From Streptomyces sp. NBC_00708 (GTDB lineage: Bacteria; Actinomycetota; Actinomycetes; Streptomycetales; Streptomycetaceae), in the NCBI GenBank assembly GCA_036226585.1, contig CP108997.1, forward strand, positions 6,200,001 to 6,264,000: 64,000 nucleotides of DNA, read 5' to 3'. This document shows positions 22,860-41,753 of this stretch, in pieces (position 1 is the stretch's first letter; each line of letters opens with the position of its first letter). Under the pieces are notes generated by a model that was not told where the DNA came from, made no database searches, and worked only from the letters and a program-made list of their open reading frames with translations. Made by a program: the position numbers and the translations under genes.

Positions 22860-23369
22860 CTCCCCTCTGAACGGGAGACTCCGCATCCGGCGGTGCACGT
22901 GTGGAGTGTCCTCCTTCCCTGTCGGCGGGCGGTTGACCGCATTTTGATCGGCTCTGCCCGTTCGGAGCGGTGTGCTGCTCCGGAACGGCAGGTGCATCGA
23001 AGCATGCCGATTCAATGACGCTGGTGCTACCCCGGCTCAATGCTTGCTAACCCTCTTCACTCCCTGCCTTTTCAGGTCGAGGTCCCGAGAGGCTCGGTGC
23101 GTCGAACCGCGTTTGCGAAAGGTCGACTCTGCCCGTTTCCGCCGGTGACCGGGCTTGCCGTTGCATGGATCGGATCGCGCCATCGCGAGGGTTCCACTTT
23201 GCGCCGCTGTCCGGGGTCACGCACCAGCTATTCATCGATCTATTGACATACATCGTTTAATGCTGGGAGTGTTCCGCCGTCGGGCTGACAGGGCCGTCAC
23301 CGACCAGCCCCGGGTTTCTGCCGGCCCGGCTGTTTCGTCGCTCACTCTGACCATTCCCTGGGGGGACGT
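22860..23369. promoter_or_regulatory. 510-base leader of the arsL-mtnP operon
   Basis: No convincing gene is present. The region begins with the acr3 deletion scar after arsR. At 23229-23261 lies a locally AT-rich patch, TATTCATCGATC then TATTGACATACATCG, with ATCGAT half-sites like those at the arsP and arsR (34801) promoters and a TTGACA hexamer at 23243. I read this as a probable ArsR-type operator and promoter for the operon starting at 23370, but no good -10 partner is evident. Confidence 0.45.
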
Positions 23370-24620
23370 GTGACCACACCCCGTGTGCTCGTGGCTTCTG
23401 CTTTCGAGGCGGAGCTCCAACCTCTGACCTCTGCCTGCGTGGCGGCTGCTCTGCGTGACCACGGCGCTGACGTGGTGGGCTGGGACGCCCATCTGCATCC
23501 TGACGCATTGCCCGAGGGCCCGTTCGAGCTCACCTTGGTCTCGGTTCAGCAGTTCGAGGGTCTGGAGCGCGGTATCGCTCTGGCCCGGCGCGTCAGCGAG
23601 GCGTATGGAACCTTGGTGGTGACGTTCGGTCAGTACGCGCAGATGAATCATCGTGAGTTCCTCCAGGTCGTGAGCGGGGTGGCGATGGAGGAGCCGGAAC
23701 TGATCGCCGAGGACCTGGTTCACCTCGCTTCCGGGGCCATGCCCCTCGGCGAGGTGCCGGCGCTGATGACAGCCGGCGGGATGCGTCCCAAGCCGCCGCG
23801 CCGCCGGATCAGCGTGGCCGCTCCGGCCAGGGAGCTGTTTCCCTCGCTGGTGCACTACCCGGCCCACCACACCCCGTACGGCCTGATGGGCAACATCGAG
23901 GCGTCCCGCGGCTGCCACCACAAGTGCACCTACTGCTCGGTGTACGGGGCCTATGACGGCGGGGTGGCAGCCTTCGACGGCGACACCGTCCTGGCCGATG
24001 CCCTGCAACTGGCCGAGGAAGGGGTACGGCACTTCTGCTTCATCGACGCGGAGTTCTTCAATTCCCGCACCATCGGTGTCGGTGTCGTCGAGCGGCTCGT
24101 CGAGGCGATCGGGCCGATCACGTTCGAGTTCACCACCCGCGTCGACCACGTCCTGGACTACACCAAGGAACTGCAGAAGCTCGTCTCACTGGGCCTGCGC
24201 AAGGTGACGTGCGCGCTGGAGTTCCCCTCCAACCGAATCCTGCGGATCTTCGACAAGCACATCGACGTCGACCACATGAAGCAGGCGGTGGCGGAGGCCG
24301 AACGCATCGGCTTCGAGCTGTTTCCCACCTTCATCCCCTTCACGCCATGGATCGAGTACGAGGAACTCCTGGGGTTCGAGGACTGGCTGGTGGAGACAGG
24401 GCTGGCCCGGGTCACCGACCCCACCGCCCTGCAGACGCGGCTGCTGTTGTTCAAGGGATCCCCGCTGCTGTCCTCACCGTGGATGGAAGACATCGCCACC
24501 GTCGACCGTGGTTTCTGGGTGGAGTGGACCCACCCCGACAAGCGCGTCGAGGAGCTGTGGCAGGACCGGCGCACCGATGCCGAGGACGCAGGGAAAATCC
24601 GCTGTTGCGTGAAGTGCTGA
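23370..24620 (+). CDS. arsL: radical SAM protein with RCC-x-KC tail, ArsL-like (organoarsenical synthesis)
   Basis: A 416-residue protein. The N-terminal ~140 residues look like a B12-binding-type Rossmann domain without an obvious cobalamin motif. The radical SAM cluster motif is C182-x3-C186-x2-C189 (GCHHKCTYCS). The protein ends in RCCVKC (residues 411-416), the cysteine tail of the RCCLKC-tail radical SAM family. From the literature as I recall it, ArsL of Burkholderia gladioli belongs to this family and transfers the 3-amino-3-carboxypropyl group of SAM to As(III) to give hydroxyarsinothricin, with the tail binding arsenic. The ArsM gene three genes downstream fits the same pathway. The start is GTG behind GGGGGGA. 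Assignment to ArsL chemistry is inference from tail and context. Confidence 0.8.
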   Translation: MTTPRVLVASAFEAELQPLTSACVAAALRDHGADVVGWDAHLHPDALPEGPFELTLVSVQQFEGLERGIALARRVSEAYGTLVVTFGQYAQMNHREFLQVVSGVAMEEPELIAEDLVHLASGAMPLGEVPALMTAGGMRPKPPRRRISVAAPARELFPSLVHYPAHHTPYGLMGNIEASRGCHHKCTYCSVYGAYDGGVAAFDGDTVLADALQLAEEGVRHFCFIDAEFFNSRTIGVGVVERLVEAIGPITFEFTTRVDHVLDYTKELQKLVSLGLRKVTCALEFPSNRILRIFDKHIDVDHMKQAVAEAERIGFELFPTFIPFTPWIEYEELLGFEDWLVETGLARVTDPTALQTRLLLFKGSPLLSSPWMEDIATVDRGFWVEWTHPDKRVEELWQDRRTDAEDAGKIRCCVKC

Positions 24621-24650
24621 CCCGCCCCCTCACACGCGAAGGACACCGAC

Positions 24651-25919
24651 ATGGGTGGATCACCCCGCATCGTCATCTCCACCGGCCAGACCCTGCCCGA
24701 CATGGACTGGTCCGGCGAACTCGACCGCCTCACCGACTCCTGGCCCTACCTGGGGCCCACGTGGCTGCGGGCCACGGAGAAGGTCCTGCCCGAGATCCAG
24801 CCCTGGCACACGATCGCGACCCGCGCACGCGGTGAACTGGCCCTGCTGCCGGGCTACATCATCACCACCCCGCCCGTCGTCGACCACGAGCCGCGCACCT
24901 ACCTCGGCTGGCAGGCCCCCAGCGGTGAGGAGGTGTGCTGCGGCGCGGAGACCGACGCCGCCCGCAGCGCCGCGGTCGACGCCCTGGGAACTGAACCGTT
25001 CTTCCCGACCCTCCTGCTCGGATCGCCGCTGGGTTACCGCACAGAGGTCGCCTACAACTTCTGGACGCCCACCCTCATGGGTGCGATCGTCGACAAGCTC
25101 GTCCCAGCGGCTTTCGAGGCGGGCATCCGCTGCATCGCCGCCCCATGGATACCCGACCGGCGAGGCAACGAAGCCCTGGTCACCGCATTGAACGCGGCCG
25201 GTGGCCATAGCGCATTCTGGGGCTTCGAGGACTTCATGAGCCTGGACGCGGGCAGCTGGGAAGGGCACCTGGCCGCGCTGCCGCTGAAGAAGCGCCAGCG
25301 CATCAAGGGCGACGTGCGCCGCGCCCTGGCCGCCGGCGTCACCATCGAGCGTGTCGACGGCGAGAACATCCGCCCCTACACGGCCCGGATCGCGGAACTG
25401 ACCTGCCTGAACCGGGAGAAGAACGGTGCGGGCGAGGAGCCCGGTCACATCGCCGGCATCCTCACCACACTGATCGACGAGGGCGCCGATGTACGCGCCT
25501 ACCTCGGCTACAAGGACGGCGCCCTGGTCGCCACCTGCGTCACCGTACGCAAGAACCACCGCCTGTTCCCCAAGTGGGCCGGCTTCGACTACGCCGCGAT
25601 CGGCGAACGCAGCGGCATCTACTTCGCCCTGGTCCTGGACGCACCCGTCAAGGACGCCTACGCCGAAGGGCTGCGCACCGTGGAGTTCGGCGCAGGCGCC
25701 CACCAGGCCAAGGCCCTGCGCGGCTGCACCCCGAGGAAGGTCACCACCACCATGGTGCTGTCCGACCCCGACCTGCGCCCCCAGGCTGCCGCCTGGCTGG
25801 ATGCCTTCGGCGCCGGCCGCCGCATCGCGTTCGGTGACACGACGGCCGCGCCCTCCCAGCCCGCGCCCCTCACTCTGCTCGGCCAGAGCACGGACGGGGG
25901 CTGCTGCTCCACCGGCTGA
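24651..25919 (+). CDS. FemAB/GNAT-fold transferase of the peptidogalycan type, in arsenic operon
   Basis: A 422-residue protein resembling the GNAT/FemAB-like 'peptidogalycan biosynthesis/recognition' family (PF04339-like). Recognisable pieces are LPLKKRQRIKGDVRRALAAGV in the middle and the acyltransferase-like block TCVTVRKNHRLFPKWAGFDY, then GLRTVEFGAGAHQAKALRG. The protein ends GGCCSTG, a vicinal cysteine tail shared with other proteins of this island. It starts 30 bases after arsL with AAGGA upstream. A plausible role is acylation or aminoacylation of the arsenical amino acid; a lipid or cell-wall role cannot be excluded. Confidence 0.65.
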   Translation: MGGSPRIVISTGQTLPDMDWSGELDRLTDSWPYLGPTWLRATEKVLPEIQPWHTIATRARGELALLPGYIITTPPVVDHEPRTYLGWQAPSGEEVCCGAETDAARSAAVDALGTEPFFPTLLLGSPLGYRTEVAYNFWTPTLMGAIVDKLVPAAFEAGIRCIAAPWIPDRRGNEALVTALNAAGGHSAFWGFEDFMSLDAGSWEGHLAALPLKKRQRIKGDVRRALAAGVTIERVDGENIRPYTARIAELTCLNREKNGAGEEPGHIAGILTTLIDEGADVRAYLGYKDGALVATCVTVRKNHRLFPKWAGFDYAAIGERSGIYFALVLDAPVKDAYAEGLRTVEFGAGAHQAKALRGCTPRKVTTTMVLSDPDLRPQAAAWLDAFGAGRRIAFGDTTAAPSQPAPLTLLGQSTDGGCCSTG

Positions 25920-25958
25920 ACCCCTGCCAGACCTTCGAATCGGACCAGAAGGAACGAC

Positions 25959-27071
25959 ATGATCACGTTCATTCCGCTGACCGGCTTCCTCGGGGCGGGC
26001 AAGACCACCACCATGACCGCAACCGCGCTGGCCCTGCAGGAAGCCGGCCGCAAAGTCGCCGTCATCACCAACGACCAAGGCGTCGAGCTGGTCGACACCA
26101 AACTGGTCCGCAGCAAACTCGACAGCGTCGCCGAAGTGACTGGCGGATGCTTCTGCTGCAAGTTCGAGGACCTCGTCGAAGCAGTCGTCGCCCTGGTCAA
26201 CTCCGACGGCGTCGACGTCGTGATCGCCGAGGCCGTCGGCTCCTGCACGGACCTGCAGGCCACCGTCGTACGCCCACTGCGCCAGTACTACGGCGACAGC
26301 ATGGTCGTCGCCCCCCTCACCACGGTCGTCGACCCGTTGCGCCACCTGGCATTCGAACGAGCGGCCCAGAGGGGTGAACCGGAATCGGACCTCTCCTACC
26401 TCTTCCGTCAGCAGCTCACCGAAGCCGATGTCGTCGCCGTCAACAAACTCGACACCATCCCGGCGGCGCGAGCCGAGGCGCTGCTCGAGGACTTGGCCGC
26501 TCAGTACCCCAGGGCCACGGTTGTCGGCTATTCCGCCACTACAGGTGCCGGACTTGCGGACCTGACCGACGCCTGGCAGGCGCCGGCGGCCAACCAGGAT
26601 GTCCAGCTCGACATCGACTATGACCGCTACGCCGCCGCCGAGGCGCAACTGGCCTGGATGAACCAGGAACTCGACCTCACCCCGGCAGTAGCGGGGGGCG
26701 GGTTCGACGCCACCGCCTGGTCCGGAACCGTGCTGGCCCGGCTCTCCCGCTGGGCGCAGGAGAGCAACGCGGTGATCGGGCACGCCAAGCTCACCGTGGA
26801 GCTGCCCGACGGGGACTTCGCCAAGCTCAGCTGTACCCAGGCCGGAGCCGACCCCACGTGCGACCGCGCCGCCGCTGCCCATGCCCCGGCCGGCCGGGCA
26901 GTCGTCAACGCCCGCATCGCCTGCGAACCCGACGCTCTCGACCAGGCCGTCACCGCTGCGGTCGACGCAGCTGACGAAGCCCACCAGGTCGTGTCCTCCG
27001 CGACCGCACCGGTCTCCTTCAAGCCGTCCTACCCCCGCCCTGTCCACCGCCTCGCCCCCGCCGGCGCCTGA
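25959..27071 (+). CDS. COG0523 (CobW-like) G3E GTPase
   Basis: A 370-residue P-loop GTPase of the G3E family, whose members deliver metals to target enzymes. Walker A is GFLGAGKTTT (residues 9-18), the metal-binding CxCC motif is GGCFCC with Cys64, Cys66 and Cys67, and the guanine motif is NKLD. The C-terminal domain is the usual COG0523 extension. A GTPase of this class inside an arsenic operon is unusual. It might supply metal to a cluster enzyme, or handle As(III) through its thiols. It lies between the FemAB-like gene and arsM, each with its own AAGGA site. Confidence 0.85.
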   Translation: MITFIPLTGFLGAGKTTTMTATALALQEAGRKVAVITNDQGVELVDTKLVRSKLDSVAEVTGGCFCCKFEDLVEAVVALVNSDGVDVVIAEAVGSCTDLQATVVRPLRQYYGDSMVVAPLTTVVDPLRHLAFERAAQRGEPESDLSYLFRQQLTEADVVAVNKLDTIPAARAEALLEDLAAQYPRATVVGYSATTGAGLADLTDAWQAPAANQDVQLDIDYDRYAAAEAQLAWMNQELDLTPAVAGGGFDATAWSGTVLARLSRWAQESNAVIGHAKLTVELPDGDFAKLSCTQAGADPTCDRAAAAHAPAGRAVVNARIACEPDALDQAVTAAVDAADEAHQVVSSATAPVSFKPSYPRPVHRLAPAGA

Positions 27072-27094
27072 CCCATTCCTCAAGGACTTCAGAC

Positions 27095-27889
27095 ATGAGC
27101 GACACCACCACGGCCTCGGGCACCTTGCAGGAAGAGGTCCGCGCCTACTACCGAGCCAAGGCTGCCGAGGCTGAGAGCAGTGGCGCCTGCTGTTCCCCCG
27201 ACCCCAACACCTTCGGCCCCGCCGCTTACGACGAGATCGGCCCCGGAACGGCACCGGACACCGCCCTGCTCGCTTCCCTGGGCTGCGGCAACCCCAGCGC
27301 GGTCGCCGAACTGCGGGAAGGAGAAACGGTTCTGGACCTGGGCTCCGGGGGAGGACTCGACGTGATCCTCTCCGCACGCCGCGTCGGCCCCGACGGGAGG
27401 GTCTTCGGGCTGGACTTCCTCGAGGAGATGCTCGCTCTGGCGGCCCGCAACATCGAGGACGCCGAGATCGACAACGTGGTCCTGCTCAAGGGCAGCATCG
27501 AGTCCATTCCGCTGCCCGAGAAGACCGTCGACGTGATCATCTCCAACTGCGTGATCAACCTGTCGCTGAACAAGCCGGCCGTGTTCGCCGAGATGGCCCG
27601 CGTGCTGGCCCCCGGCGGACGCCTGGGCATCAGCGACGTAGTGGCCGAAGACCGCCTCAGCCCCGAGGAACGGGCGCAGCGTGGCGGGCACAGCCAGTGC
27701 ATCGCCGGCGCCCTGTCGGTGGGGGAGTACCGCGAACTCCTGGACGCCGTGGGCCTGAAGGACACCGAGATCGTCTTCACCCAGGAAGCCGCGGACGGCC
27801 TGCACGCCGCCATCATCCGCGCCCGAAAGCCCGTCGACAACGAAGCCGACGCTCCGCAGGAGTGTGCCCCCGGGGGCACCTGCTGCTGA
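27095..27889 (+). CDS. arsM: arsenite S-adenosylmethionine methyltransferase
   Basis: A 264-residue class I methyltransferase. The SAM site is VLDLGSGGGLD (residues 79-89). The three cysteines that ArsM enzymes use to bind As(III) are present as Cys64 (LGCGNP), Cys152 (SNCVINLS) and Cys202 (SQCIAGAL). Extra cysteine pairs lie at 32-33 and at the very C terminus (GGTCC). In arsinothricin biosynthesis ArsM methylates the hydroxylated intermediate, and elsewhere it methylates inorganic arsenite. Its place in one operon with an ArsL-like enzyme favours the biosynthetic role. Confidence 0.95.
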   Translation: MSDTTTASGTLQEEVRAYYRAKAAEAESSGACCSPDPNTFGPAAYDEIGPGTAPDTALLASLGCGNPSAVAELREGETVLDLGSGGGLDVILSARRVGPDGRVFGLDFLEEMLALAARNIEDAEIDNVVLLKGSIESIPLPEKTVDVIISNCVINLSLNKPAVFAEMARVLAPGGRLGISDVVAEDRLSPEERAQRGGHSQCIAGALSVGEYRELLDAVGLKDTEIVFTQEAADGLHAAIIRARKPVDNEADAPQECAPGGTCC

Positions 27890-27958
27890 TCCGCACCGCC
27901 GGATTCCGGGCCGCGGCCCCTGACGTCCGCGGCCCCTTCACACACTGGAGACACCGCC

Positions 27959-29038
27959 ATGTCTTTCACAGTCGTGCTCGTTTTCATCCTGGTAGCGGCC
28001 CTTGCCGCCGCCAACGGCAGCAACGACGTCCCCAAAGGCGTCGCCACCCTCGCCGGGGCGGGGGTGACCAAATACCGCACCGCCATTGTGTGGGGCACCG
28101 TCACCACCCTCGCCGGATGCCTGTGCTCCCAGGCCCTGGCCGACCGCATGACCAAGCTCTTCTCCGCAGGCATCGTCACCGCTGAACCGACCGACGCATT
28201 CGCCGTCGCCGTACTCGCCGGCACCGTCGCCTGGGTGGCCCTCGCCACCGTCCTGCGCCTGCCCGTCTCCACCACCCACGCCCTGATCGGTGCTCTCCTG
28301 GGCGCCGGGATGCTGCTCGCGTCCGACTCCATCGCCTGGAGCGCCATTCCGGAGAAACTCATCATCCCGCTGCTCGTCAGCATCGGCATCGCCTACGCCA
28401 TATCCCTGGTCCTGGCCCTGGTCTTCAACCGCGGCGCCGCCTCCAAGCCCCCCACCACTGAGCAGGAAGCGACCACCGCTCCCGCGTCCCCGGCCACCCC
28501 GGCAGGCGAGAGCGGAGCCCTGCTCGCCGCTGAACGCGTCAGCGCCTCCCCGGCCACCGCAACCGAACCCCCCGCCGGGCGCGTCCTGGCCGCCGCGCAC
28601 TGGCTCACCAGCGGCGCCACCGGCTTCGCCCGGGGCCTCAACGACACCCCCAAGATCGTCGCCATCGGCGCATTCGCCCTCGTCCCGGCCGGCATGACGA
28701 CGTGGCAGATCATGCTCCTGGTCTCCGGAGCAATGGCCCTCGGTTCCCTCACCGGTGGCATGCGCCTGGCCCAGCGCCTGGGTGAAGGAGTCATCCGCAT
28801 GAACCACCGTGAAGGGTTCATGGCCAACATCACCACCGCCAGCCTGGTCGGTCTCGGCGCCGGCTACGGGCTGCCCATGTCCACCACCCACACCTCGACG
28901 GGCGCCATCGCGGGCTCGGCCGGGGCCAACCTCAGCCGTCTGAGCGGCAAGACGCTGCGTCACTTCCTCATCGCCTGGCTGGTGACCCCGCCCTTCGCGG
29001 CAGGGGTGGCCGCCCTGGTCTTCCTGGTGGCCCGCTGA
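27959..29038 (+). CDS. PiT-family inorganic phosphate (arsenate?) permease
   Basis: A 359-residue membrane protein with the two PiT signature repeats, ANGSNDVPKGVATLAGAG at the N terminus and ARGLNDTPKI in the second half, and the paired VSTTHA/MSTTHT motifs. A Ser/Pro/Ala-rich loop of about 60 residues separates the halves. PiT proteins move phosphate with a cation and usually accept arsenate. Here it could import arsenate as the arsenic source, or supply the phosphate used by MtnP. It ends 20 bases before the truncated arsR remnant. Confidence 0.9.
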   Translation: MSFTVVLVFILVAALAAANGSNDVPKGVATLAGAGVTKYRTAIVWGTVTTLAGCLCSQALADRMTKLFSAGIVTAEPTDAFAVAVLAGTVAWVALATVLRLPVSTTHALIGALLGAGMLLASDSIAWSAIPEKLIIPLLVSIGIAYAISLVLALVFNRGAASKPPTTEQEATTAPASPATPAGESGALLAAERVSASPATATEPPAGRVLAAAHWLTSGATGFARGLNDTPKIVAIGAFALVPAGMTTWQIMLLVSGAMALGSLTGGMRLAQRLGEGVIRMNHREGFMANITTASLVGLGAGYGLPMSTTHTSTGAIAGSAGANLSRLSGKTLRHFLIAWLVTPPFAAGVAALVFLVAR

Positions 29039-29040
29039 CC

Positions 29041-29259
29041 ACTCTCGAACACGAGCCCTCACTCGGGCGGGCAACCGCCGAGGAGTACGCCCGCTGGTTC
29101 CAGGCCCTCGCCGACCCGACACGCATTCTCATCGTGCGTTTCGTCAGCCGGGAGGAACGCCCGGTACCAGCGGGCGTCATCGTCGACCACCTCAAGCTCA
29201 GCCGGCCGACGGTCTCCCACCACCTCAAGATCCTGCGCCAGGCCCGCTTCCACCGGTAA
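29041..29259 (+). pseudogene. truncated ArsR remnant inside the operon
   Basis: The frame beginning at the PiT stop codon reads ...EYARWFQALADPTRILIVRF... and ...LKLSRPTVSHHLKILRQARFHR before a TAA at 29257. This is the N-terminal two thirds of an ArsR protein, closest in style to the arsR at 34801 (YATWFKALSDPTR). The wing and C terminus are gone and there is no ATG, GTG or TTG start in frame. It has the same orientation as the operon genes. Confidence 0.75.
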
Positions 29260-29416
29260 CACCGCGGCGATCCGCTTCCTCTACCCGGCCCAGGACCGCA
29301 TCCCCCGAGCAGGCGACCGCCGACCTCGCCGATCCGAGCGCACTGATCGAACGGCGAGCCCAGCCCCCTGCCGACTGAACCGTCGGCGCAGGCCCGACCC
29401 GAAGGGACACCCACCA

Positions 29417-30439
29417 GTGAACCCACCCGGCACCGCGCAGTCGTCGCTGGCCTGGGACGACGGCACGATCGTCACCCTCGACCAGCGCGCCCTGCCTCAC
29501 GAGACCCGGCAGATCCGGCTGACCACGGTCGAGGAAGTGGGGGAGGCCATCGCCACTCTCGCCATCCGCGGAGCCCCGGCCATCGGACTGGCCGGAGCCC
29601 TGGCCGTGGCCCTCTCGGCTCGCCGTCATCTGTCCGGACCGGCACCCGACCCCAGAGCGGTGCGGGCAGATGCGGAGCGGCTCGTCGCGGTGCGCCCCAC
29701 CGCCGTCAACCTCGCTTGGGCCGTAGACCGGGTCCTGCGCCACCTTCCCGAAGGCCCCGACGCGGTCCTGACAGAAGCCTTGAACATGCTGGACCAGGAC
29801 ATCGCCGTCAACCTGCGTATGGTCACGCACGCCGTCGACGCAGTCACCTCCGTCTGCCCCGACAAACCGCTGGGCATATGGACGCACTGCAACACGGGCC
29901 GCCTTGCCACAGCCGCAGTCGGAACCGCTCTGGGCGCCATCCTCGCCCTCGCCGAATCCGGCCGAGTCCGTGAAGTCCTGGTGGGCGAGACGAGACCGCT
30001 CCTTCAAGGCGCCCGCCTGACCACATGGGAACTCGCCGAGGCCGACATCCCGCACCGGCTGTGTGTGGACTCCGCGGCCGCGACCGCCATGGCAGCGGGC
30101 CTGGTCGACTGCGTCCTGGTGGGAGCCGATCGCATAGCCGCCAACCACGATGTCGCCAACAAGATCGGTACGTACGCCCTCGCGCTGGCCGCCCATCACC
30201 ACGGCGTCCCGTTCTTCGTCGTGGCCCCCGTATCGACCCGTGATGCCACGATCCCCGGTGCCAGTCACCTTGTCGTCGAGCAGCGCCCCGCCCACGAGGT
30301 CACCCACTACGGCGGGACACGCACCGCGCCGGCCTCCACCCGTGCCTTCAACCCCGCGTTCGACACCACCCCCGCCCAGCTGATCACAGCGCTCATCTCC
30401 GAGGACGGCATCACCTGGCCCGAGGGAGAACACGCATGA
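29417..30439 (+). CDS. mtnA: S-methyl-5-thioribose-1-phosphate isomerase
   Basis: A 340-residue enzyme that converts methylthioribose 1-phosphate to methylthioribulose 1-phosphate. Family motifs include IRGAPAIG, THCNTGRLAT with the catalytic cysteine, and LVGADRIAANHDVANKIGTY with the catalytic aspartate. The start is GTG with GAAGGGA upstream. It is the first of five methionine-salvage genes, and its stop overlaps mtnB (ATGA). Confidence 0.95.
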   Translation: MNPPGTAQSSLAWDDGTIVTLDQRALPHETRQIRLTTVEEVGEAIATLAIRGAPAIGLAGALAVALSARRHLSGPAPDPRAVRADAERLVAVRPTAVNLAWAVDRVLRHLPEGPDAVLTEALNMLDQDIAVNLRMVTHAVDAVTSVCPDKPLGIWTHCNTGRLATAAVGTALGAILALAESGRVREVLVGETRPLLQGARLTTWELAEADIPHRLCVDSAAATAMAAGLVDCVLVGADRIAANHDVANKIGTYALALAAHHHGVPFFVVAPVSTRDATIPGASHLVVEQRPAHEVTHYGGTRTAPASTRAFNPAFDTTPAQLITALISEDGITWPEGEHA

Positions 30440-31128
30440 CCTACGCCCCCGCCACCACCACCGGCCGCACAACGGCCGGGCAACTGGCCACGACCAGCCG
30501 CCGCCTGTACGAACAGGGCTGGATGCCCGGCACCGCAGGCAACTTGTCGATGCTCCTGCCCGACCAGCCGCAGCGCGCCCTCATCACAGCCAGCGGCCGG
30601 GACAAGGGCGAACTCGCCAACCAGGACATGGTCGAGATCGACGCCCACACCAGCGAACCCGTCCGCACCGGGTCACAGCGCGCATCGGCCGAAACCTGCA
30701 TCCACTCCGCGCTCTACCGCACCACCGACGCACAAGCCGTCATCCACGTCCACTCGCCGTACGCCACCGTCATCGCCACCCGAGCCCAGCACCCCCAGCA
30801 CACCAGCCTTCTGCACCTGGAACGCTACGAGCTCCTCAAGGGCCTCGGCCTGGCCGATCCCTCCCGGACCACCGTGCCCGTCTTCGTCAACTGGCCCGAC
30901 GTCCCACGCATCGCCCACAATGTCGCAGCCTGGGCCACGGCCACACCCGGCGCTCCGCCCGGACTGCTCATCGCCGACCACGGCATCACCACCTGGGGCA
31001 GCTCCCTGGCCCAGGCTCGCAACCGTCTCGAATGCCTGGAAGCGATCTGCCAGCTCCTGGTCCTGGCAGCCACGCCCCTGAGCACTACCACCACACCTGA
31101 CATCTCACCCACCGCGGAGCACTCATGA
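30436..31128 (+). CDS. mtnB: methylthioribulose-1-phosphate dehydratase
   Basis: A 230-residue class II aldolase-fold zinc enzyme that dehydrates methylthioribulose 1-phosphate to the 2,3-diketo intermediate. Visible motifs are GTAGNLSM, ITASGRDKG, the SAETCIHSALY glutamate region, the metal ligands in HVHSPYA, and LLIADHGITTWG with the third histidine. It overlaps mtnA and mtnD by ATGA, so the three are translationally coupled. Confidence 0.93.
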   Translation: MTYAPATTTGRTTAGQLATTSRRLYEQGWMPGTAGNLSMLLPDQPQRALITASGRDKGELANQDMVEIDAHTSEPVRTGSQRASAETCIHSALYRTTDAQAVIHVHSPYATVIATRAQHPQHTSLLHLERYELLKGLGLADPSRTTVPVFVNWPDVPRIAHNVAAWATATPGAPPGLLIADHGITTWGSSLAQARNRLECLEAICQLLVLAATPLSTTTTPDISPTAEHS

Positions 31129-31700
31129 CACTCCTTCAGGTCATGCCGGCCGAAGCACCTGGCACCGTCCTCACCCGGACCCGCGACACCGCCGAGATCA
31201 CCGACATGCTGCGCACACATGGAGTGTCCTTCAGCCGCTGGCCGGTGCGGCTGAGGGTTACCCCCACCACCACCCCCGCCGACCTGCTGGAGACCTACCG
31301 CAAGGAGGTCGACGTCCTGTGCGCCGAGCAGGGCCTGCGTCTGGTGGACGTGGCCCGACTCCATCCCGAGGACAGCCCCGCATGGGCCGTGCGTGCCGAC
31401 GCGGCCCGTTCGATGTTCCTCGAAGAGCACCGTCACGACGAAGACGAGGTGAGGTTCTTCGCCCACGGCACCGGTTGCTTCTACCTGCACCTGGACGACA
31501 AGGTTCACGCCGTCGTATGCGAGGCGGGCGACCTTCTGTCCGTCCCCGCCGGCACCCGGCACTGGTTCGACATGGGCCCCGTTCCGGACTTCGCCGCCAT
31601 CCGCTTCTTCGAAAAGGAGGACGGCTGGGTCGGCGACTTCACCGCGGACCCCATCGCGACTTCCTTCCCCCGCCTCGACGCACTGCTGGCCGAGGACTGA
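31125..31700 (+). CDS. mtnD: acireductone dioxygenase
   Basis: A 191-residue cupin that oxidises acireductone to the keto acid precursor of methionine plus formate when Fe(II) is bound. The metal ligands are in EHRHDEDEVR (His102, His104, Glu108) and PAGTRHWF (His146). The length matches bacterial enzymes. The mtnC start follows its stop after one base. Confidence 0.95.
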   Translation: MTLLQVMPAEAPGTVLTRTRDTAEITDMLRTHGVSFSRWPVRLRVTPTTTPADLLETYRKEVDVLCAEQGLRLVDVARLHPEDSPAWAVRADAARSMFLEEHRHDEDEVRFFAHGTGCFYLHLDDKVHAVVCEAGDLLSVPAGTRHWFDMGPVPDFAAIRFFEKEDGWVGDFTADPIATSFPRLDALLAED

Positions 31701-31701
31701 C

Positions 31702-32442
31702 ATGAACCCGCGCCACCAGGCAGTCCTCCTCGACATCGAAGGCACCACAGGCGCCCTCTCCCACGTCCGCGATGTGCTCTTCCCGTACGCTCGCACGCGC
31801 ATCGCCCCGTGGATGACCGCCCACCACCACACCGAGCAGGGCCAGCAGATTCTTCAAGCAGTCCGAACCGACCTCGGCGACCCGCGACTCAGCCCCACCG
31901 ATGTGATCGCCCAGCTCGAAGAATGGGCCGACACCGACACCAAGGCAGCACCTCTCAAGAACCTCCAGGGCCACATCTGGGCAGCCGGATACGCCGCCGG
32001 CGAACTGGCCGGTCACGTCTATCCGGATGTCCCGCCGGCCCTCGCCGCCTGGCGGGAACGAGGCATCGCCCGCTACATCTACTCCTCAGGCTCCGAAGCC
32101 GCCCAACGCGACTGGTTCGCCCACACCGCCCACGGCGACCTGACCCTGCTCCTCGACGGCCACTTCGACCTCAACTCGGCCGGCCCCAAGCACGATGCCG
32201 CCTCCTACCTGAGCATCGCCGGAGCCATCCGCACACCACCGGCGCTCGTCCTCTTCGTCAGCGACTCGGGTGAAGAACTGGACGGCGCGGCCACCGCAGG
32301 CTTCCAGACCCTCGCCGTCCGCCGCCCGGACGATCCGCGTCCCGCACCTCCGGCCCATCGCCTGCTCACCTCACTGACACCTCTCATCCGGGCCGGCGCG
32401 CACACCGGCGTTCCCACGCACGTCGAAGGATCCCGCCCATGA
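31702..32442 (+). CDS. mtnC: acireductone synthase (enolase-phosphatase)
   Basis: A 246-residue HAD-superfamily enzyme that enolises and dephosphorylates the diketo phosphate intermediate to acireductone. The HAD nucleophile region is LLDIEGTTG (Asp11, Glu13), followed by YIYSSGSEAAQ and the late LFVSDSGEELDGA aspartate motif, all as in MtnC/E1 enzymes. It overlaps mtnP by ATGA. Confidence 0.93.
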   Translation: MNPRHQAVLLDIEGTTGALSHVRDVLFPYARTRIAPWMTAHHHTEQGQQILQAVRTDLGDPRLSPTDVIAQLEEWADTDTKAAPLKNLQGHIWAAGYAAGELAGHVYPDVPPALAAWRERGIARYIYSSGSEAAQRDWFAHTAHGDLTLLLDGHFDLNSAGPKHDAASYLSIAGAIRTPPALVLFVSDSGEELDGAATAGFQTLAVRRPDDPRPAPPAHRLLTSLTPLIRAGAHTGVPTHVEGSRP

Positions 32443-33257
32443 GCACCGACACTCCCGGCCCGCAGGCCGACATCGCTGTCATCGGAGGCAGCGGCTTCTA
32501 CTCACTCCTTGACGGTGCGCAGCTCGTCCACATCGCCACCCCCTACGGGGAGCCCTCCGATCCGATAGCTCTGGGCGCGGTCGCCGGCCGGCAGGTCGCC
32601 TTCCTGGCCCGCCACGGCACCGACCACCGCCACCCGCCCCACCGCATCAACTACCGAGCGAACCTCTGGGCGTTGCGGTCACTGGGAGTACGCCAGGTTC
32701 TGGCACCTTGCGCCGTCGGGTCGCTGCGTCCGGAGCTCGGACCGGGCAGCATCGTCATTCCGGACCAACTCGTCGACCGAACCACCTCGCGCGTGCAGAC
32801 CTATCTCGACGAAGGTGCGGTCCACGTGCCTTTCGCCGACCCCTACTGCCCTGCCGGCCGCACCACTGTGGTCAAGGCCGCCGCAGGCACCGGCCTCCCG
32901 GTCCACGACGGCGGCGTCATGGTGGTCATCGAAGGCCCCAGGTTCTCCACCCGGGCCGAATCCCGTTGGTACGCCTCGTCCGGCTGGTCCGTGGTCAACA
33001 TGACCGGGCACCCCGAAGCCGTCCTGGCCCGCGAACTGGCCCTGTGCTACACCCCGATCGCACTGGTCACCGACTACGACGCGGGCGCACAGGCAGGCGA
33101 CGGTGTCTCGCAGGACGAGGTCTTCCGCATCTTCAGCGAGAACGTCGAAGTGCTGAAGGGCCTGGTTCTTGAGGCCATCGCCCAGCTCGACCTCACGCGC
33201 CCCTGCAGCTGCGCGGCAGTACTCGACGGCATCACACTGCCCATCAATCTGCCCTGA
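32439..33257 (+). CDS. mtnP: S-methyl-5'-thioadenosine phosphorylase
   Basis: A 272-residue phosphorylase that splits 5'-methylthioadenosine into adenine and methylthioribose 1-phosphate, the entry step to MtnA. Motifs include IGGSGFYSL, ARHGTDHRHPPHRINYRAN, and VIEGPRFSTRAES with VNMTGHPEAVLARE. The C-terminal region has PCSCAAV. Because the phosphorylase yields methylthioribose 1-phosphate directly, no kinase (mtnK) is needed. It is the last gene of the operon and is followed by a strong hairpin. Confidence 0.95.
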   Translation: MSTDTPGPQADIAVIGGSGFYSLLDGAQLVHIATPYGEPSDPIALGAVAGRQVAFLARHGTDHRHPPHRINYRANLWALRSLGVRQVLAPCAVGSLRPELGPGSIVIPDQLVDRTTSRVQTYLDEGAVHVPFADPYCPAGRTTVVKAAAGTGLPVHDGGVMVVIEGPRFSTRAESRWYASSGWSVVNMTGHPEAVLARELALCYTPIALVTDYDAGAQAGDGVSQDEVFRIFSENVEVLKGLVLEAIAQLDLTRPCSCAAVLDGITLPINLP

Positions 33258-33341: not shown

Positions 33342-33361
33342 GCAGGGGCGGGGGAGCGGTC

Positions 33362-34453
33362 CTACAGGAGCGGCAGGGCGGCCAGCCCGATGCCGACGCT
33401 GCCCACCAGGCCCACGCCGAGGTAGAAGGCGAAGACGTTGCCCTTCACAACGCTGCGGACCGCGACCATCGCGGGAATGGTCGTGATCGCACCGCCCAGG
33501 AGGAAGGTGACGCCGGCGCCGGCCGCCATGCCCTGATTCATCAGGCCCTCGACGACCGGAATGGCTCCGACGCCGTTGAGGTAGAGGGGAACACTGATCA
33601 GTCCGGCCAGCAGGACGGAGAAGATGCCGTCCGTTCCCAGGATGGAGCTGACGACATCACCCGGCACGTAGCGGACGATCAGCGCTTCCAGCACGATGGC
33701 CAGCAGCAGCCATCGGCCCAGGATGAGCGAGTCACTGACGATCTCCTTGAGGATCTCCACTGCGTTGAGATTCTTGATGTCACGCCTGACCAGGATCCGC
33801 CAAGGAGTGCCATCGTCCTCGTCGGGGGCATTTGCCGCGGCCTCGCAGGAGCTCGTGCCGGCGGAGCCATCCTGCGCAGGCTCGCCGGCGCCGGGAGCGG
33901 AACCCGCACCGACCGAGGCCGGGGCGGGAGACGGCACCGCCGAGCACGCGGAGACCTCGACAGCCGTCTGCGAGCACGCCTTGGCAGGAGCCGAATCCTT
34001 GGTGCCTTCGCGCAGCGGATTGGTGAAACGCCCCCGGCGCTCCATGGCCAGGACGATCAGACCCGCACCGAAGCTGAGGATCAGCGCGCCGACCAGACGT
34101 GCTGTAGCCACAGGAAAACCGAGCTGGGCGGCCGACAGCGCGTAGATCTCGGGGTCCATCGCAGGGGAGGCGATCCAGAAGGACATCACGGCCGAAAGGG
34201 GAACCCCGGCGATCAGAAAGCGCCGGATGAGGGGAATGACGGTGAAGGAGCAGAACGGACTGAAGGCGCCGATGGCCGTGGTGATCGCGATGCCGAGGAT
34301 CCCTCGGCGGCCGTTCGCGAAACTGCGCTTGGCGACCACGTCGATGGACAGCCGCTGAACGGCGATGCCCAGAACGATGGCTACCAGAAACCACGGAAGG
34401 TAGTGCAGCACCTCGCGCAGTATGAACAGGCTCAGGGCCTGCACTTCGCTCAC
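33362..34453 (-). CDS. arsP: ArsP-like (DUF318/SO_0444-type) permease
   Basis: A membrane protein of about 363 residues in two halves of several helices each. The signature SPFCSFTVIPLIRRFLIAGVPL and the later FLLGGAITTIPAM are those of the DUF318 permeases, which include ArsP, an exporter of trivalent organoarsenicals, and SO_0444-type metal exporters. The central loop, about residues 155-215, has four cysteines (ACSQ, SACS, SSCE), which could bind As(III). The start is GTG at 34453. It is driven by the ArsR-type promoter at 34558-34587. Export of the organoarsenical made by the neighbouring operon is the likely job, though a divalent metal substrate is possible. Confidence 0.8.
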   Translation of the reverse strand: MSEVQALSLFILREVLHYLPWFLVAIVLGIAVQRLSIDVVAKRSFANGRRGILGIAITTAIGAFSPFCSFTVIPLIRRFLIAGVPLSAVMSFWIASPAMDPEIYALSAAQLGFPVATARLVGALILSFGAGLIVLAMERRGRFTNPLREGTKDSAPAKACSQTAVEVSACSAVPSPAPASVGAGSAPGAGEPAQDGSAGTSSCEAAANAPDEDDGTPWRILVRRDIKNLNAVEILKEIVSDSLILGRWLLLAIVLEALIVRYVPGDVVSSILGTDGIFSVLLAGLISVPLYLNGVGAIPVVEGLMNQGMAAGAGVTFLLGGAITTIPAMVAVRSVVKGNVFAFYLGVGLVGSVGIGLAALPLL

Positions 34454-34544
34454 AGGAGGACCTCTCTGGGAAGGCGGCACACAGGTGTCAGTCGCCGAAC
34501 TTGCACGGTCGGCAGCAGCGGGGGAGGCCAACAAGCGCCCCCAT

Positions 34545-34587
34545 TCATCGAATATCGATGATAGGCGATTAATAAACGCTCGGGCAA
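34545..34587 (-). promoter_or_regulatory. arsP promoter overlapping an ArsR-type palindrome
   Basis: On the minus strand, TTGCCC (34582-34587) and TATCAT (34558-34563) are 18 bases apart. The perfect inverted repeat TCATCGA-ATA-TCGATGA at 34545-34561 overlaps the -10 and the start region. The rest of 34454-34800 shows no gene. Confidence 0.65.
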
Positions 34588-34761
34588 TGCCCTGCGCGCC
34601 CTGTCCGCGCAGGTCGGTCGATCTGCCCTGGCTCCTGTGGGCGGGAAACGGTGTGGCCGTCCTGCGGGCGCTCCCGATTTGGCAGGATCGATTCTCATCC
34701 ATATAGGTGCGAAGGTCCCGCCGGTGCGGCACGTGGGGTGCTGTCGCCTGTTGCGCGCACC

Positions 34762-34803
34762 TTGCCTCAGCATCACGCCATCGACTAGCATCGATGGATC
34801 ATG
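34762..34803 (+). promoter_or_regulatory. arsR promoter and operator, leaderless start
   Basis: TTGCCT (34762-34767) and TAGCAT (34786-34791) are 18 bases apart, the same geometry as the arsP promoter. The CATCGAT core overlaps the -10. The predicted transcription start falls at or within a few bases of the ATG at 34801, and there is no ribosome binding site, so the mRNA is probably leaderless. Confidence 0.6.
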
Positions 34804-35130
34804 ACCGGCACAATGAACGCCCAGCTGATCGACCGAGCCACCGCCGAGTCCTATGCGACGTGGTTCAAAGCACTGTCCGACCCCACCCGCGTCCAGATCC
34901 TCAACCTGCTCGCACTCGCCCCCGGCGCCATGAACGTCGGCGAGATCGTCGAGCGGGTCGGTGTGGGCCAGTCCACGGTCTCCCACCACCTGAAACTCCT
35001 GGCCGACGTCCGCTTCGTGCTGCGCGAACGCCAGGGGACCTCCATGCTTTACTCGATCAACGTTGCCTGCGTCGCTTGTTTCCCCAGCGCTGCCGATGCC
35101 GTCATGGGCCGTCCTGCGGCCTCCGCCTGA
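34801..35130 (+). CDS. arsR: ArsR-family repressor, copy 3
   Basis: A 109-residue repressor with YATWFKALSDPTRVQILNLL and the recognition helix GQSTVSHHLKLLADVRFVLRERQGTS. Cysteines sit only near the C terminus (ACVACF), so the inducer site differs from the CVCD-type copies. It is divergent from arsP and shares its operator type, so it probably controls arsP and itself. The truncated arsR at 29041 is a relative. Confidence 0.88.
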   Translation: MTGTMNAQLIDRATAESYATWFKALSDPTRVQILNLLALAPGAMNVGEIVERVGVGQSTVSHHLKLLADVRFVLRERQGTSMLYSINVACVACFPSAADAVMGRPAASA

Positions 35131-35668: not shown

Positions 35669-36169
35669 TCAGTTCACGGCAGGACTGCGGCGTTCGATCA
35701 GCTGTACATCACGCCACACTCCGCGCAGCCGCCCGACCCGCTCACGAGTGCCGATGACCCGGAACCCGACGCGCTCGTGCAGGACGAGGCTGGCGGTGTT
35801 CTCCGGGAACACTCCGGCCTGGACAGTCCAGATTCCCGCAGCCTCCGTCGAGGTGATGAACGCTTCCAGCAAGGACCGGGCCACGCCGCGTCCCCGTGCC
35901 GACGGTCGGACATAGACGGAGTGCTCGACCACGCCCGCGTACGCAGGGCGGGCGGATACCGCTGAAGCAGCGATCCACCCCAGGAGAGTTCCGTCCGCCT
36001 GCAGGGCGACAAGGCGGTGGCTGAGGAGCTTTGACTTGTCGAACGCGGCCCACGTCGGTGCGCCGGTTTCGAAGGTGGCGTTGCCCTCGTCGATGCCTGC
36101 CTGGTAGACCGCCAGGACCTGCTCCGCGTGGCCGGCACGCATGGGTTCCAGAGTGAAGGCGCCGTGCAC
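35669..36169 (-). CDS. arsN1: GNAT acetyltransferase of the phosphinothricin/ArsN type
   Basis: A 166-residue GNAT enzyme with the PAT-family opening NATFETGAPTWAAFD, the VEHSVYV strand and the acetyl-CoA loop RPSARGRGVARSLL. The same family contains phosphinothricin acetyltransferase and ArsN1, which acetylates the amino group of arsinothricin and so detoxifies it. Beside an ArsL/ArsM operon the enzyme is a strong candidate for producer self-resistance. The start is GTG at 36169 with AGGAGG upstream; a longer ORF exists but lacks this site. Other members acetylate methionine derivatives, so substrate is inferred. Confidence 0.8.
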   Translation of the reverse strand: MHGAFTLEPMRAGHAEQVLAVYQAGIDEGNATFETGAPTWAAFDKSKLLSHRLVALQADGTLLGWIAASAVSARPAYAGVVEHSVYVRPSARGRGVARSLLEAFITSTEAAGIWTVQAGVFPENTASLVLHERVGFRVIGTRERVGRLRGVWRDVQLIERRSPAVN

Positions 36170-36420
36170 GGGCTGTCCTCCTGGGATGCGGTGGGGAAGG
36201 TGCTTGCGGCGATTCTTCCCGATAGCGGGACGGGGGTCATCTGCGGGCAGGACGGAGGGCGTCGGACTCGCGAACCGGTCGGCGGAAATACACGGCGACG
36301 GCGGGCACAGCGAGGCGGAAACCGCGCCCACGTGCGCTCACGGAAAGGCGGGGGCCAGCTCCTGTCCGCCAGGTCCGCCAACGCGGCGGACAGAAGCTGG
36401 TGCTGATGGGGTGGGGATGA

Positions 36421-36879
36421 TCAGACGGTGGTGTGTCTGGTCACGGCCTCGGCAAGGGCTCCGGCCGGCGAGGGGATGGTCTTCGCGTGGTCGGTCGGCG
36501 AGGAGAGGTACCGCTCGGCGTCGAGCCCCGCCGCGCACCCGGACGCGGCTGCGGTGACGGCCTGGCGGTAGGGGTGGTCGACGACATCGCCCGCGCCGAG
36601 GACGCCGGGGATGCCGGTGCGGGGCGAGGGCGAATCGACTTTGAGATCACGCGGTTCGCCGGTGAACGTGTCTCGCAGCACCACACCGGCGAGCATGCCG
36701 CCCTCCTCCTTGATCTCGGCGATCTCGCTGTCGAAGGCGAAGGAGATCTTGTCGTCGGAGAAGGCCCGGTTCTGCACCCCGAACTGCAGAGGCTTGAGCT
36801 CGGCGCGGGCCGTGTACAGGGCCGAGGTGTGCCCGGCAGGTCCTGGGCCGAAGATGATGATGTTGCGCACCTCATTCAT
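36421..36879 (-). pseudogene. thioredoxin reductase remnant with internal in-frame deletions
   Basis: The 152-residue frame starts [28 protein letters not shown], which is the FAD-binding start of thioredoxin reductase, then jumps to [20 protein letters not shown] from the middle, and then to [27 protein letters not shown] from the end. A full-length enzyme has about 320 residues; the redox CxxC block is missing. The frame stays open and overlaps arsC copy 2 by ATGA, so it may still be translated, but it cannot be an active reductase. Confidence 0.8.
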
Positions 36880-37289
36880 GCCGCGGGCTCCGGGGCGAGA
36901 TCCTCGATCAGGTTTTCGATGAGGGCTTTGATCTCGTCGCGAATGGGGCGGACTGCTGCGACGCCCTGGCCTGCGGGGTCTGCGAGCTTCCAGTCGAGGT
37001 AGCGCTTACCGGGGAACACGGGACAGGCGTCGCCGCAGCCCATCGTGATGCAGACGTCCGACGCCTGCACGGCGTCCACAGTGAGGACCTTCGGCGTCTG
37101 ATCGGAGATGTCGATGCCGACTTCGGCCATCGCCTCGACTGCGGCCGGGTTGACTTCCGCTCCCGGTACGGAGCCGGCGGAGCGGACCTCGATGCGGTCG
37201 CCCGCGAGGTGACTGAGCCAGGCGGCGGCCATCTGGGAACGGCCGGCGTTGTGCACACAGACGAACAGCACCGAAGGCTTGTCGGACAT
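36876..37289 (-). CDS. arsC: arsenate reductase, copy 2
   Basis: A 137-residue enzyme with the CVHNAGRS active-site loop and [10 protein letters not shown] cysteines, nearly the same protein as the copy at 22067. It is divergent from the arsR-acr3 pair and translationally coupled to the trxB remnant, the natural source of reducing power in intact operons. Two arsC copies 14 kb apart with the same divergent arsR partner indicate a duplication. Confidence 0.94.
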
Positions 37290-37379: not shown

Positions 37380-37688
37380 ATGATGACGTCAGTCGATACT
37401 GAATTGATCAGGGTTCTGGGTGATCCGCTCAGGCTCAAGATCGTGACCCTGCTCGCCCGCGAGACCCTGTGCACCACCCACCTGGTGGAGGAGACGGGGG
37501 CGAAGCAGACGAACCTCTCCAACCACCTGCGGGTGCTACGGGAGGCGGGCGTGGTGGAGACGGAGCCCTGCGGCCGCTTCACCTACTACCGGCTGCGCCC
37601 CGACGTCATCACCCACCTCGCGGATCAGTTCGCCGATCTGGCGGCTTCCGCCCGTACTGCGGCTGAGAACAAGAGGGCATGCCCGTGA
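37380..37688 (+). CDS. arsR: ArsR-family repressor, copy 5 (of the acr3 operon)
   Basis: A 102-residue repressor, close relative of the one at 22551 (LGDPLRLKIVTLLARETLCTTHLV, QTNLSNHLRVLREAGVVETE). Its end overlaps the start of acr3 by ten bases. ATG codons at 37380 and 37383 are both possible starts. Confidence 0.92.
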   Translation: MMTSVDTELIRVLGDPLRLKIVTLLARETLCTTHLVEETGAKQTNLSNHLRVLREAGVVETEPCGRFTYYRLRPDVITHLADQFADLAASARTAAENKRACP

Positions 37689-38791
37689 CCACGACCCGGG
37701 CCCCCGCGACGAACGAGGATGCCTCGGTCGTGCAGCAGCTCTCGACCCTCGACCGCTTCCTCGCCGTCTGGATCCTCCTGGCCATGGCCCTGGGGCTCGG
37801 CCTGGGGAGGCTCATTCCCGGCCTGAACGATGCGCTGGCGAAGATCGAGGTCGGCGGGATCTCGCTGCCGATCGCCCTGGGCCTGCTGGTCATGATGTAT
37901 CCGGTGCTGGCCAAGGTCCGCTACGACAAGCTCGACACGGTCACCGGCGACCGCACACTGATGATGTCCTCGCTGGTCATCAACTGGATCGTCGGGCCCG
38001 CCGTCATGTTCGCCCTGGCGTGGATCTTCCTGCCCGACCTGCCCGAGTACCGCACGGGCCTGATCATCGTCGGCCTGGCCCGCTGCATCGCCATGGTCAT
38101 CATCTGGAACGACCTCGCCTGCGGCGACCGCGAAGCCGCCGCCGTCCTCGTCGCCCTGAACTCGGTGTTCCAGGTGTTCGCATTCGGCCTGCTGGGCTGG
38201 TTCTACCTCGACCTGCTGCCGCGCTGGACGGACCTGGGCGACGGCCAGGGCCTGGATGTGTCCGTCCGGCACATCGCCCTGAACGTCATCATCTTCCTCG
38301 GCATCCCGCTGCTGGCAGGCTTCCTCACCCGCCGCATCGGCGAGTGGAAGACGGGCCGCGAGAACTACGAGGCGAAGTTCCTGCCGAAGATCGGCCCCTG
38401 GGCGCTGTACGGACTGCTGTTCACGATCGTCATCCTCTTTGCACTCCAGGGGAAGACCATCACCTCCCAGCCGCTGGACGTCGTACGGATCGCACTGCCG
38501 CTCCTGGTCTACTTCGCGGTCATGTTCTTCGGGACCTTCCTCCTGGGCAAGGGCCTCGGACTCGCGTACGACCGCACCACCACGCTCGCGTTCACCGCGG
38601 CGGGCAACAACTTCGAGCTGGCCATCGCCGTCGCCATTGCCACCTTCGGCGTCACCTCCGGGCAGGCGTTGTCGGGCGTCGTCGGCCCGCTCATCGAGGT
38701 CCCCGTCCTGATCGGCCTGGTGTACGTCGCGCTGGCCTGGCGCGAGAAGTTCGCCCCCTCAGCCCTCGCCACCCCGGAAAGGGACGCCTGA
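37679..38791 (+). CDS. acr3: Acr3-type arsenite efflux permease
   Basis: A 370-residue transporter with ten predicted helices of the BART superfamily. The helix 4 motif [18 protein letters not shown] holds the essential cysteine, and [16 protein letters not shown] in helix 9 holds the conserved glutamate. It exports As(III) using the proton gradient. With arsR and the divergent arsC it forms the standard inorganic arsenic resistance core of the island. Confidence 0.96.
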
Positions 38792-41288: not shown

Positions 41289-41753
41289 ATGTCCCGAGTA
41301 CAGCTCGCCCTACGCGTCCCCGACCTCCAAGCCTCAATCGCCTTCTACAGCAAGCTCTTCGCCACCGAACCGGCGAAACTGCGTGATGGCTACGCCAACT
41401 TCGCCATCGCCGAACCACCGCTCAAGCTTGTCCTCGTCCAAGGCAACCCTGATGAGGACACGCGCATGGACCACCTCGGCATCGAGGTCGACACCACGGA
41501 AGCAGTCCACGCCGCCACCGCCCGTCTCCAGGACCAAGGGCTGACGACCGACGTCGAGAACGACACCACCTGCTGCTACGCCCTCCAGGACAAGGTCTGG
41601 GTCCACGGCCCCGGCCAGGAACCGTGGGAGGTGTACGTCGTCAAGGCGGACGCCGACTCCATGGCCAAGCAGAAGAACAGCACCTGCTGCGCCGACCCGG
41701 CCGCCGTGGCCGACCCGGCCACTCCGGTCCGGGCCGGTGGCTGCTGCCCGTGA
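41289..41753 (+). CDS. arsI: ArsI/CadI-type C-As lyase (VOC superfamily)
   Basis: A 154-residue vicinal-oxygen-chelate protein. ArsI breaks the carbon-arsenic bond of trivalent organoarsenicals such as MAs(III), with an Fe(II) site of His-His-Glu and a substrate-binding cysteine pair. Here the cysteine pair is Cys95-Cys96 (TTCCYA), His62 lies in MDHLGIEV and the glutamate in PWEVYVV, but the first ligand position holds Gln5 (SRVQLALRV). The C terminus adds two more cysteine pairs (TCCAD, GGCCP). It follows the flavoprotein gene by 57 bases. Confidence 0.87.
   Translation: MSRVQLALRVPDLQASIAFYSKLFATEPAKLRDGYANFAIAEPPLKLVLVQGNPDEDTRMDHLGIEVDTTEAVHAATARLQDQGLTTDVENDTTCCYALQDKVWVHGPGQEPWEVYVVKADADSMAKQKNSTCCADPAAVADPATPVRAGGCCP

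Follow-up and report, generated by a model that had tools for sequence, protein, structure and literature searches.

To our knowledge, few organoarsenical natural products of bacteria are known. In Burkholderia gladioli GSRB05, the reactions of ArsL and ArsM from the arsQML cluster have been described; ArsL is proposed to move the 3-amino-3-carboxypropyl group of S-adenosylmethionine (SAM) to As(III), and arsenite induction is proposed to proceed through ArsR (PMC8552651, in the part drawn on here). In the bsn (bisenarsan) clusters, BsnM/BsnN form the C-As bond with no involvement of SAM; for S. lividans, arsonopyruvate is regarded as the product of bsnM and bsnN, and its decarboxylation is assigned to bsnJ (PMC12159101, likewise in part). 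The present analysis concerns a stretch of 64,000 nucleotides (the window) from Streptomyces sp. NBC_00708 (contig CP108997.1, positions 6,200,001 to 6,264,000), which harbors an arsL locus of ten genes at 23370-33257. Judged by its sequence, it represents a variant of the arsinothricin system that is conserved in actinobacteria. The best explanation, given a probability of about 0.6, is an arsenic-inducible pathway that would make an arsinothricin-type amino acid, probably an antibiotic, and join it into a peptide, with recycling of the by-product 5'-methylthioadenosine (MTA).

The locus shares with the published arsQML region an ArsL with the CxxxCxxC motif, an ArsM, ars genes, a nearby PiT permease and the presumed mode of induction through ArsR (PMC8552651, same part). 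It differs from arsQML in an ArsM of another type, in the added FemAB-like, GTPase and mtn genes, and in lacking an arsQ-type permease, as no GntP family was found among the genes scanned at 23370-41753. The first-pass annotation had listed the FemAB-like, GTPase, PiT and methionine salvage genes as additions to the arsQML set; this stands for all but PiT, whose novelty was rejected since pitA adjoins arsQML in the B. gladioli locus (PMC8552651, same part). The ten genes described there as intact and co-directional are indeed uninterrupted + strand open reading frames with ends at 23370 and 33257:

23370..24620, + strand: arsL, radical SAM 3-amino-3-carboxypropyl transferase of arsinothricin biosynthesis (NF040542, CxxxCxxC and RCCxxC)
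24651..25919, + strand: femAB-like double-GNAT transferase, predicted to be aminoacyl-tRNA-dependent (PF04339/PF13480, AlphaFold2 model, folds, neighbourhood)
25959..27071, + strand: COG0523/CobW-type GTPase carrying a CxCC motif, putative chaperone of As(III) or a metal (PF02492, 103 bits)
27095..27889, + strand: arsM, small arsenite/organoarsenical methyltransferase (NF008823, conserved cysteines)
27959..29038, + strand: PiT-family phosphate/arsenate permease (PF01384, 188 bits)
29134..29259, + strand: remnant of an arsR gene, 41-codon helix-turn-helix (comparison with relatives)
29417..30439, + strand: mtnA, methylthioribose-1-phosphate isomerase (TIGR00512, 367.5 bits, cut-off 279)
30436..31128, + strand: mtnB, methylthioribulose-1-phosphate dehydratase (TIGR03328, 173.6 bits, cut-off 137)
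31125..31700, + strand: mtnD, acireductone dioxygenase (PF03079, ARD, 96.8 bits, cut-off 27)
31702..32442, + strand: mtnC, acireductone synthase, sole match in the genome (TIGR01691, 221.7 bits, cut-off 128)
32439..33257, + strand: mtnP, methylthioadenosine phosphorylase (NF005876, 441.1 bits, cut-off 306)

The ArsL assignment is well supported by family scores and motifs. A comparison with other RCC-tail proteins, made by family scores, yielded 480.6 bits for the NCBI ArsL equivalog NF040542 (passing the curated cut-off of 450) against 199.2 bits for the next best family, that with the CUAEP/CCAEP tail (cut-off 500). The earlier call of an ArsL-like radical SAM protein is thus borne out by its score and by both motifs, CHHKCTYC (CX3CX2C) and the tail RCCVKC (RCC[LV]KC), and the arsinothricin-like amino acid proposed as product is supported. 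The genome encodes one ArsL, whose nearest named matches are from Streptomyces; it is 35-41% identical to seven proteobacterial ArsL proteins (that of B. gladioli not among them), and a sequence search among solved structures retrieved remote radical SAM chains only. In the GTDB genome collection, 34 loci were found, namely 24 actinobacterial, seven proteobacterial and three that are not ArsL-like (L034-L036, left out of the locus counts). A midpoint-rooted tree of 33 ArsL sequences, built with no outside family, splits the actinobacterial and proteobacterial groups with support of 100/100 and places the window protein within Streptomyces. Across the same 33 proteins of both groups, 75 residues are invariant, among them the three cluster cysteines and the tail RCC..C (L033, with 273 residues, was left out of tree and count).

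The survey of gene order proposed in the first-pass annotation revealed a conserved actinobacterial locus type and not a one-off. A femAB-like gene follows arsL in 23 of the 24 actinobacterial loci, the GTPase gene comes next in 22 and arsM next in 20, with PiT immediately after arsM in seven; L021 ends at a contig end, and its absent arsM and mtn genes say little. In the genome G179 (L061), with an ArsL 99% identical to that of the window, a near-identical island keeps the same order from the upstream ArsR/ArsC genes to Acr3, with one gene more. The locus lacking femAB (L026, 10001-14011) encodes a Nonomuraea ArsL homologue of 50% identity near a cytochrome P450 (PF00067); no FemAB, GTPase or ArsM was found within the stretch examined, and this homologue possibly leads to another ArsL-derived product.

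In the proposed pathway, arsenic would act as inducer, and arsenate would be imported by PiT and reduced by ArsC. As(III), perhaps delivered by the CxCC GTPase, would receive the 3-amino-3-carboxypropyl group of SAM from ArsL, giving hydroxyarsinothricin (AST-OH) and MTA, and ArsM may methylate the former to arsinothricin. MtnP, A, B, C and D would return MTA towards methionine, by which the by-product is removed and SAM refilled. The arsinothricin-type amino acid would then be joined to other amino acids, with the FemAB-like protein as the probable peptide-forming enzyme, and an ATP-grasp ligase of the relatives, lost in the window, could attach a further residue. As a peptide, the compound would stay masked within the producer and be set free inside the target cell, with an ArsN1-like enzyme and an ArsP_1 permease serving self-protection and export. 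The sequence lends good support to synthesis and to recycling of the by-product; the peptide, the role of the GTPase, the directions of transport and the regulation are predictions. If the peptide step is true, the predicted product class would be arsenical peptides, the arsenic counterpart of phosphonate peptide antibiotics.

The FemAB-like protein matches PF04339 and PF13480, and no solved relative was found by sequence at E<=1. Its AlphaFold2 model (predicted local distance difference test score 92.2) shows a double-GNAT fold nearest FemX/MprF/Sbb17, and the 22 nearest folds are of aminoacyl-tRNA-using types. Dependence on aminoacyl-tRNA is more likely for this protein than dependence on acyl-CoA; the further acylation of the product suggested in the first-pass annotation stands in a refined form. 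K354 is present in 78 of 80 FemAB-like proteins; the catalytic lysines of known enzymes are Lys305 in FemX and Lys329 in DhpH-C. DhpH-C/DhpK of the dehydrophos pathway and other FemX-like enzymes offer a parallel in the double-GNAT FemX-like fold and in a small amino-acid-like acceptor with a tetrahedral oxo-acid; they differ in acting on a phosphonate instead of an arsenical and in their FemABX sequence similarity, as against PF04339/PF13480 only in the window protein, characterized here by sequence and model (PMC12945691, in the part drawn on here).

A different explanation holds that the window makes plain arsinothricin or hydroxyarsinothricin, with no peptide and with the FemAB-like protein acting as an N-acyltransferase that uses acyl-CoA and serves detoxification or self-protection. 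We consider this unlikely: an ArsN1-like gene already resides in the island and in the loci of several relatives, the 22 nearest folds speak for aminoacyl-tRNA, and the relatives carry a gene resembling L-amino-acid ligases. Within the library covered, the literature searches found no report of an arsenic amino acid linked into a peptide, a single and unrelated match pairing arsinothricin with aminoacyl-tRNA, no paper pairing it with methionine salvage or methylthioadenosine and, among the matches listed, no report of the arsL-femAB-GTPase-arsM locus type.

The FemAB-like family occurs in 13 of 246 Streptomyces genomes, six times beside ArsL (86-100% identity) and seven times as more distant relatives (47-51%). 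All seven distant relatives (L057-L060, L062-L064) lie within the same arsenic cluster (~20 kb around each), comprising genes for an aminotransferase, ArsR, ArsP, ArsR, FemAB, a LuxR-type regulator, a small protein, BsnM, BsnN and a CTP-synthase-like protein, with PstS in six of the seven and a cysteine-rich FemAB N-terminus in the four read (families were scanned on L057-L060 and extended to the others by tblastn). The proteins called BsnM here are 5-enolpyruvylshikimate-3-phosphate-synthase-like, and those called BsnN are phosphoglycerate-mutase-like. The window locus thus shares the FemAB family, ArsR and ArsP with a subset of clusters of the bsn type (PMC12159101, same part); in the window genome, no BsnN-type mutase (TIGR01307) was matched. 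BsnN-type proteins were found in 18 of the 246 genomes, in 17 of which BsnM is adjacent (L095, with BsnN only, was left out). Within ~10 kb on each side of these 17 clusters, FemAB and aminotransferase are both present in seven and both absent in ten (L096-L105), and a decarboxylase-like gene is found in nine of the ten FemAB-less clusters and in none of the seven with FemAB. The query for the decarboxylase came from L096 and covered 181 residues at its C-terminal end; the three of the nine pieces that were scanned match phosphonopyruvate decarboxylase (TIGR03297) best, below the whole-protein cut-off because they are partial. In L103, neither FemAB nor the decarboxylase is present, and three ATP-grasp ligase-like stretches were observed.

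Arsonopyruvate therefore appears to be used in one of two ways: it is either decarboxylated (bisenarsan type) or transaminated to an arsenical alanine, the latter in the company of FemAB. In the ArsL and the BsnMN chemistry alike, FemAB appears to accompany the step forming an arsenical alpha-amino acid, and therefore we infer the amino group of that acid to be the acceptor. This split among BsnMN clusters offers a second, independent place to seek arsenical peptides. The wider proposition, for which the chances stand about even, is that a FemX-like aminoacyl-tRNA-dependent ligase family, often with an ATP-grasp ligase, would make arsenical peptides by capping arsinothricin-type amino acids (ArsL route) and arsono-alanine (from arsonopyruvate by aminotransferase, BsnMN branch), the MTA-recycling module having been recruited several times. 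Worded as a testable rule, actinobacterial ArsL would come with a FemAB-like enzyme and often with an amino-acid ligase and methionine salvage.

Conserved cysteines suggest another role, in which the FemAB-like protein and the GTPase handle As(III) itself as thiol-rich carriers with no acylation of a product. FemAB positions C96 and C97 (77 and 75 of 80) and C418 and C419 (72 and 74 of 80) would suit such carriers, as would C64, C66, C67 and C96 of the GTPase (CxCC included), kept in 24/24, and C263 and C264 of ArsM, present in 82% of 22 proteins. This idea is very improbable given that FemAB keeps to clusters that form amino acids and is missing from those of the decarboxylase type, although both must handle arsenic. 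A chaperone function of the GTPase, towards As(III) or a metal, is our guess. The arsenic cysteines ascribed to ArsM by the first reading are present, as C32, C33, C64, C152 and C202 are kept in 22/22 aligned ArsM proteins.

SAM deprived of its 3-amino-3-carboxypropyl group is MTA, the substrate of MtnP. The window harbors a complete mtnA, B, C, D, P set, the same as in ordinary methionine salvage; here its place is an arsenic island, next to a radical SAM enzyme predicted to release MTA. On the best reading, these genes recycle the MTA formed by ArsL, which would explain the presence of salvage genes in such an island. Among 246 Streptomyces genomes, ArsL was found in six and MtnC in 42, i.e. 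in 6/6 ArsL genomes as compared to 36/240 others; in the six, MtnC is a single match at 7.1-13.4 kb from arsL, with mtnA at 4.8-11.1 kb. Of the 24 actinobacterial loci, 11 have mtnA no more than 11.5 kb from arsL; six of these linkages were seen in sequence, two (L005, L011) are backed by matching coordinates (L011 also by L068), and three (L006, L010, L012) by contig numbers agreeing with contig names. An MtnA tree, in which nine rows stand for the linked copies, sets these in three positions held apart by branches of good support: one is the clade of the Streptomyces islands, and the others are Lentzea (L025) and Amycolatopsis (L018, with ~30% identity). Separate recruitment of the module on several occasions is the simpler reading of this tree, repeated loss being the less simple one. 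The use of the mtn genes as builders of a carbon skeleton was rejected, since they form a salvage set acting on MTA.

It could also be argued that chance or common descent brought a general methionine salvage operon into the island, untied to ArsL. Streptomyces operons of mtnABDCP without arsL exist (L070, L072, L073), and therefore the module was recruited rather than invented; moreover, the island mtnA is the sole mtnA in seven of the 11 linked genomes, because of which the genes may serve the whole cell. The MtnC distribution, the three separate arsL-mtn linkages and an ArsL chemistry that predicts MTA make this explanation quite unlikely, and the linkage of mtn to ArsL is, on these counts, well supported.

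In two relatives, L061 and L008, an arsR gene and a gene for an ATP-grasp protein are located between PiT and mtnA. The regions compared are 29034-29417 in the window, 10299-11933 in L061 and 16070-17335 in L008; relative to L061, ~1159 and 143 bp are missing from the window, leaving the arsR remnant. As this alignment indicates, the window has lost the ligase by deletion, and its copy is not the most complete version of the locus. The nearest PDB matches of the ATP-grasp protein are the L-amino-acid ligases BL00235 (E 3e-23) and BacD, and its scores stay under the cut-offs of the NCBI BacD and DdaF models. A tblastn search placed the gene 4.6-9.9 kb downstream of arsL in 14 of 24 loci, five of these matches running into the end of the examined stretch; with L007, recognized via its extension L088, at least 15 ArsL loci carry it. 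A 32%-identical ATP-grasp stretch was also observed near ArsL in the proteobacterium Vogesella (L032, 2390-3406).

Several observations, the sole-copy status of the island mtnA among them, weigh against a peptide-forming, MTA-recycling arsinothricin pathway in the window. Its ArsM reaches 243.4 bits with NF008823 (cut-off 263) and only 111.8 bits with the arsinothricin ArsM model NF040538 (cut-off 500); methylation of the product is uncertain because this ArsM is closer to ordinary arsenite methyltransferases than to arsinothricin ArsM, and the product may be AST-OH-like. The FemAB-like protein has no match to PF02388 (FemABX) at E<=0.001, its profile comparison with FemX (hhalign) is weak (probability 39% and 9%), with alignments ending at residue 346 and thus short of K354, and CoA-type tandem GNATs are intermixed from rank 10 onward in the Foldseek E-value list; a shared fold alone is no proof of tRNA use. 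The ATP-grasp ligase has no tblastn match in the window, the closest copy elsewhere in the genome, with 38% identity, is distant from the island, and none was found in the stretches examined of the seven FemAB-bearing BsnMN clusters or of L020-L026. Those seven clusters look like one lineage, whose counts are not independent events, and Fisher values take no account of common ancestry. Finally, mtnA is unlinked in 13 of 24 actinobacterial and all seven proteobacterial ArsL loci, and no mtnA match was found in the genomes of L003, L004 and L020.

Regulation appears to start from one element upstream of arsL:

23230..23262, + strand: putative arsenic-responsive promoter/operator of arsL, ATTCATCGAT..TTGACATACATCG

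The TTGACATACATCG-type element is a single site within the window and precedes arsL there and in 17 of 24 actinobacterial loci, at a distance of 116-131 bp (71 bp in L021). The intergenic gaps measure 23-69 bp from arsL through PiT, and the mtn genes abut or overlap; the spacing from PiT to mtnA is 378 bp and contains the arsR remnant. A crude sigma-70 scan, not built for Streptomyces, found no promoter-like site and no + strand terminator-like site past 23394, in line with the earlier statement that clear internal signals are lacking. A single transcript of ten genes is nevertheless not established because of the 378-bp gap and because arsC, arsR and acr3 lie between arsM and mtnA in relatives (L005-L007 and L010-L013, seven of the nine named Streptomyces loci with linked mtnA). 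Certainty on one transcript was thus rejected, and the mtn genes may be a separate transcription unit.

The arsenic island postulated in the first-pass annotation is real and wider than the ten genes, extending over about 21.7-41.8 kb. Genes for ArsR, ArsC and ArsR at 21692-22859 lie upstream of arsL, and the following genes lie downstream of mtnP:

33362..34732, - strand: ArsP_1-type permease, candidate exporter with predicted substrate (PF03773, 143.5 bits)
34801..35130, + strand: ArsR-type regulator (family scan)
35669..36331, - strand: ArsN1-like N-acetyltransferase, probable self-protection (NF040503, 119 bits, under the cut-off of 170)
36876..37289, - strand: ArsC-like arsenate reductase (NCBIfam cut-offs not reached)
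37380..37688, + strand: ArsR-type regulator (family scan)
37679..38791, + strand: Acr3 arsenite exporter (TIGR00832, 435 bits, cut-off 282.8)
41289..41753, + strand: ArsI/CadI family metalloenzyme (NF041414, 202.5 bits, cut-off 116)

Between the ArsN1-like and ArsC-like genes, a short thioredoxin-reductase-like gene (36421-36879, - strand, 152 aa) matches parts only of the family profile and looks internally shortened; in several relatives, L003 for example, two stretches that match it lie ~0.85 kb apart. Downstream of the permease, L023 (near 7737) and L024 (near 15589) each have another FemAB-like stretch, which is partial and distant (29% identity). In the window, a true FemABX protein (PF02388; 50264-51427, + strand), one of three in the genome, is encoded ~8.5 kb past the island, and a three-module non-ribosomal peptide synthetase of 3167 aa (2300-11803, - strand) with three condensation, three AMP-binding and three carrier domains lies ~10 kb from it.

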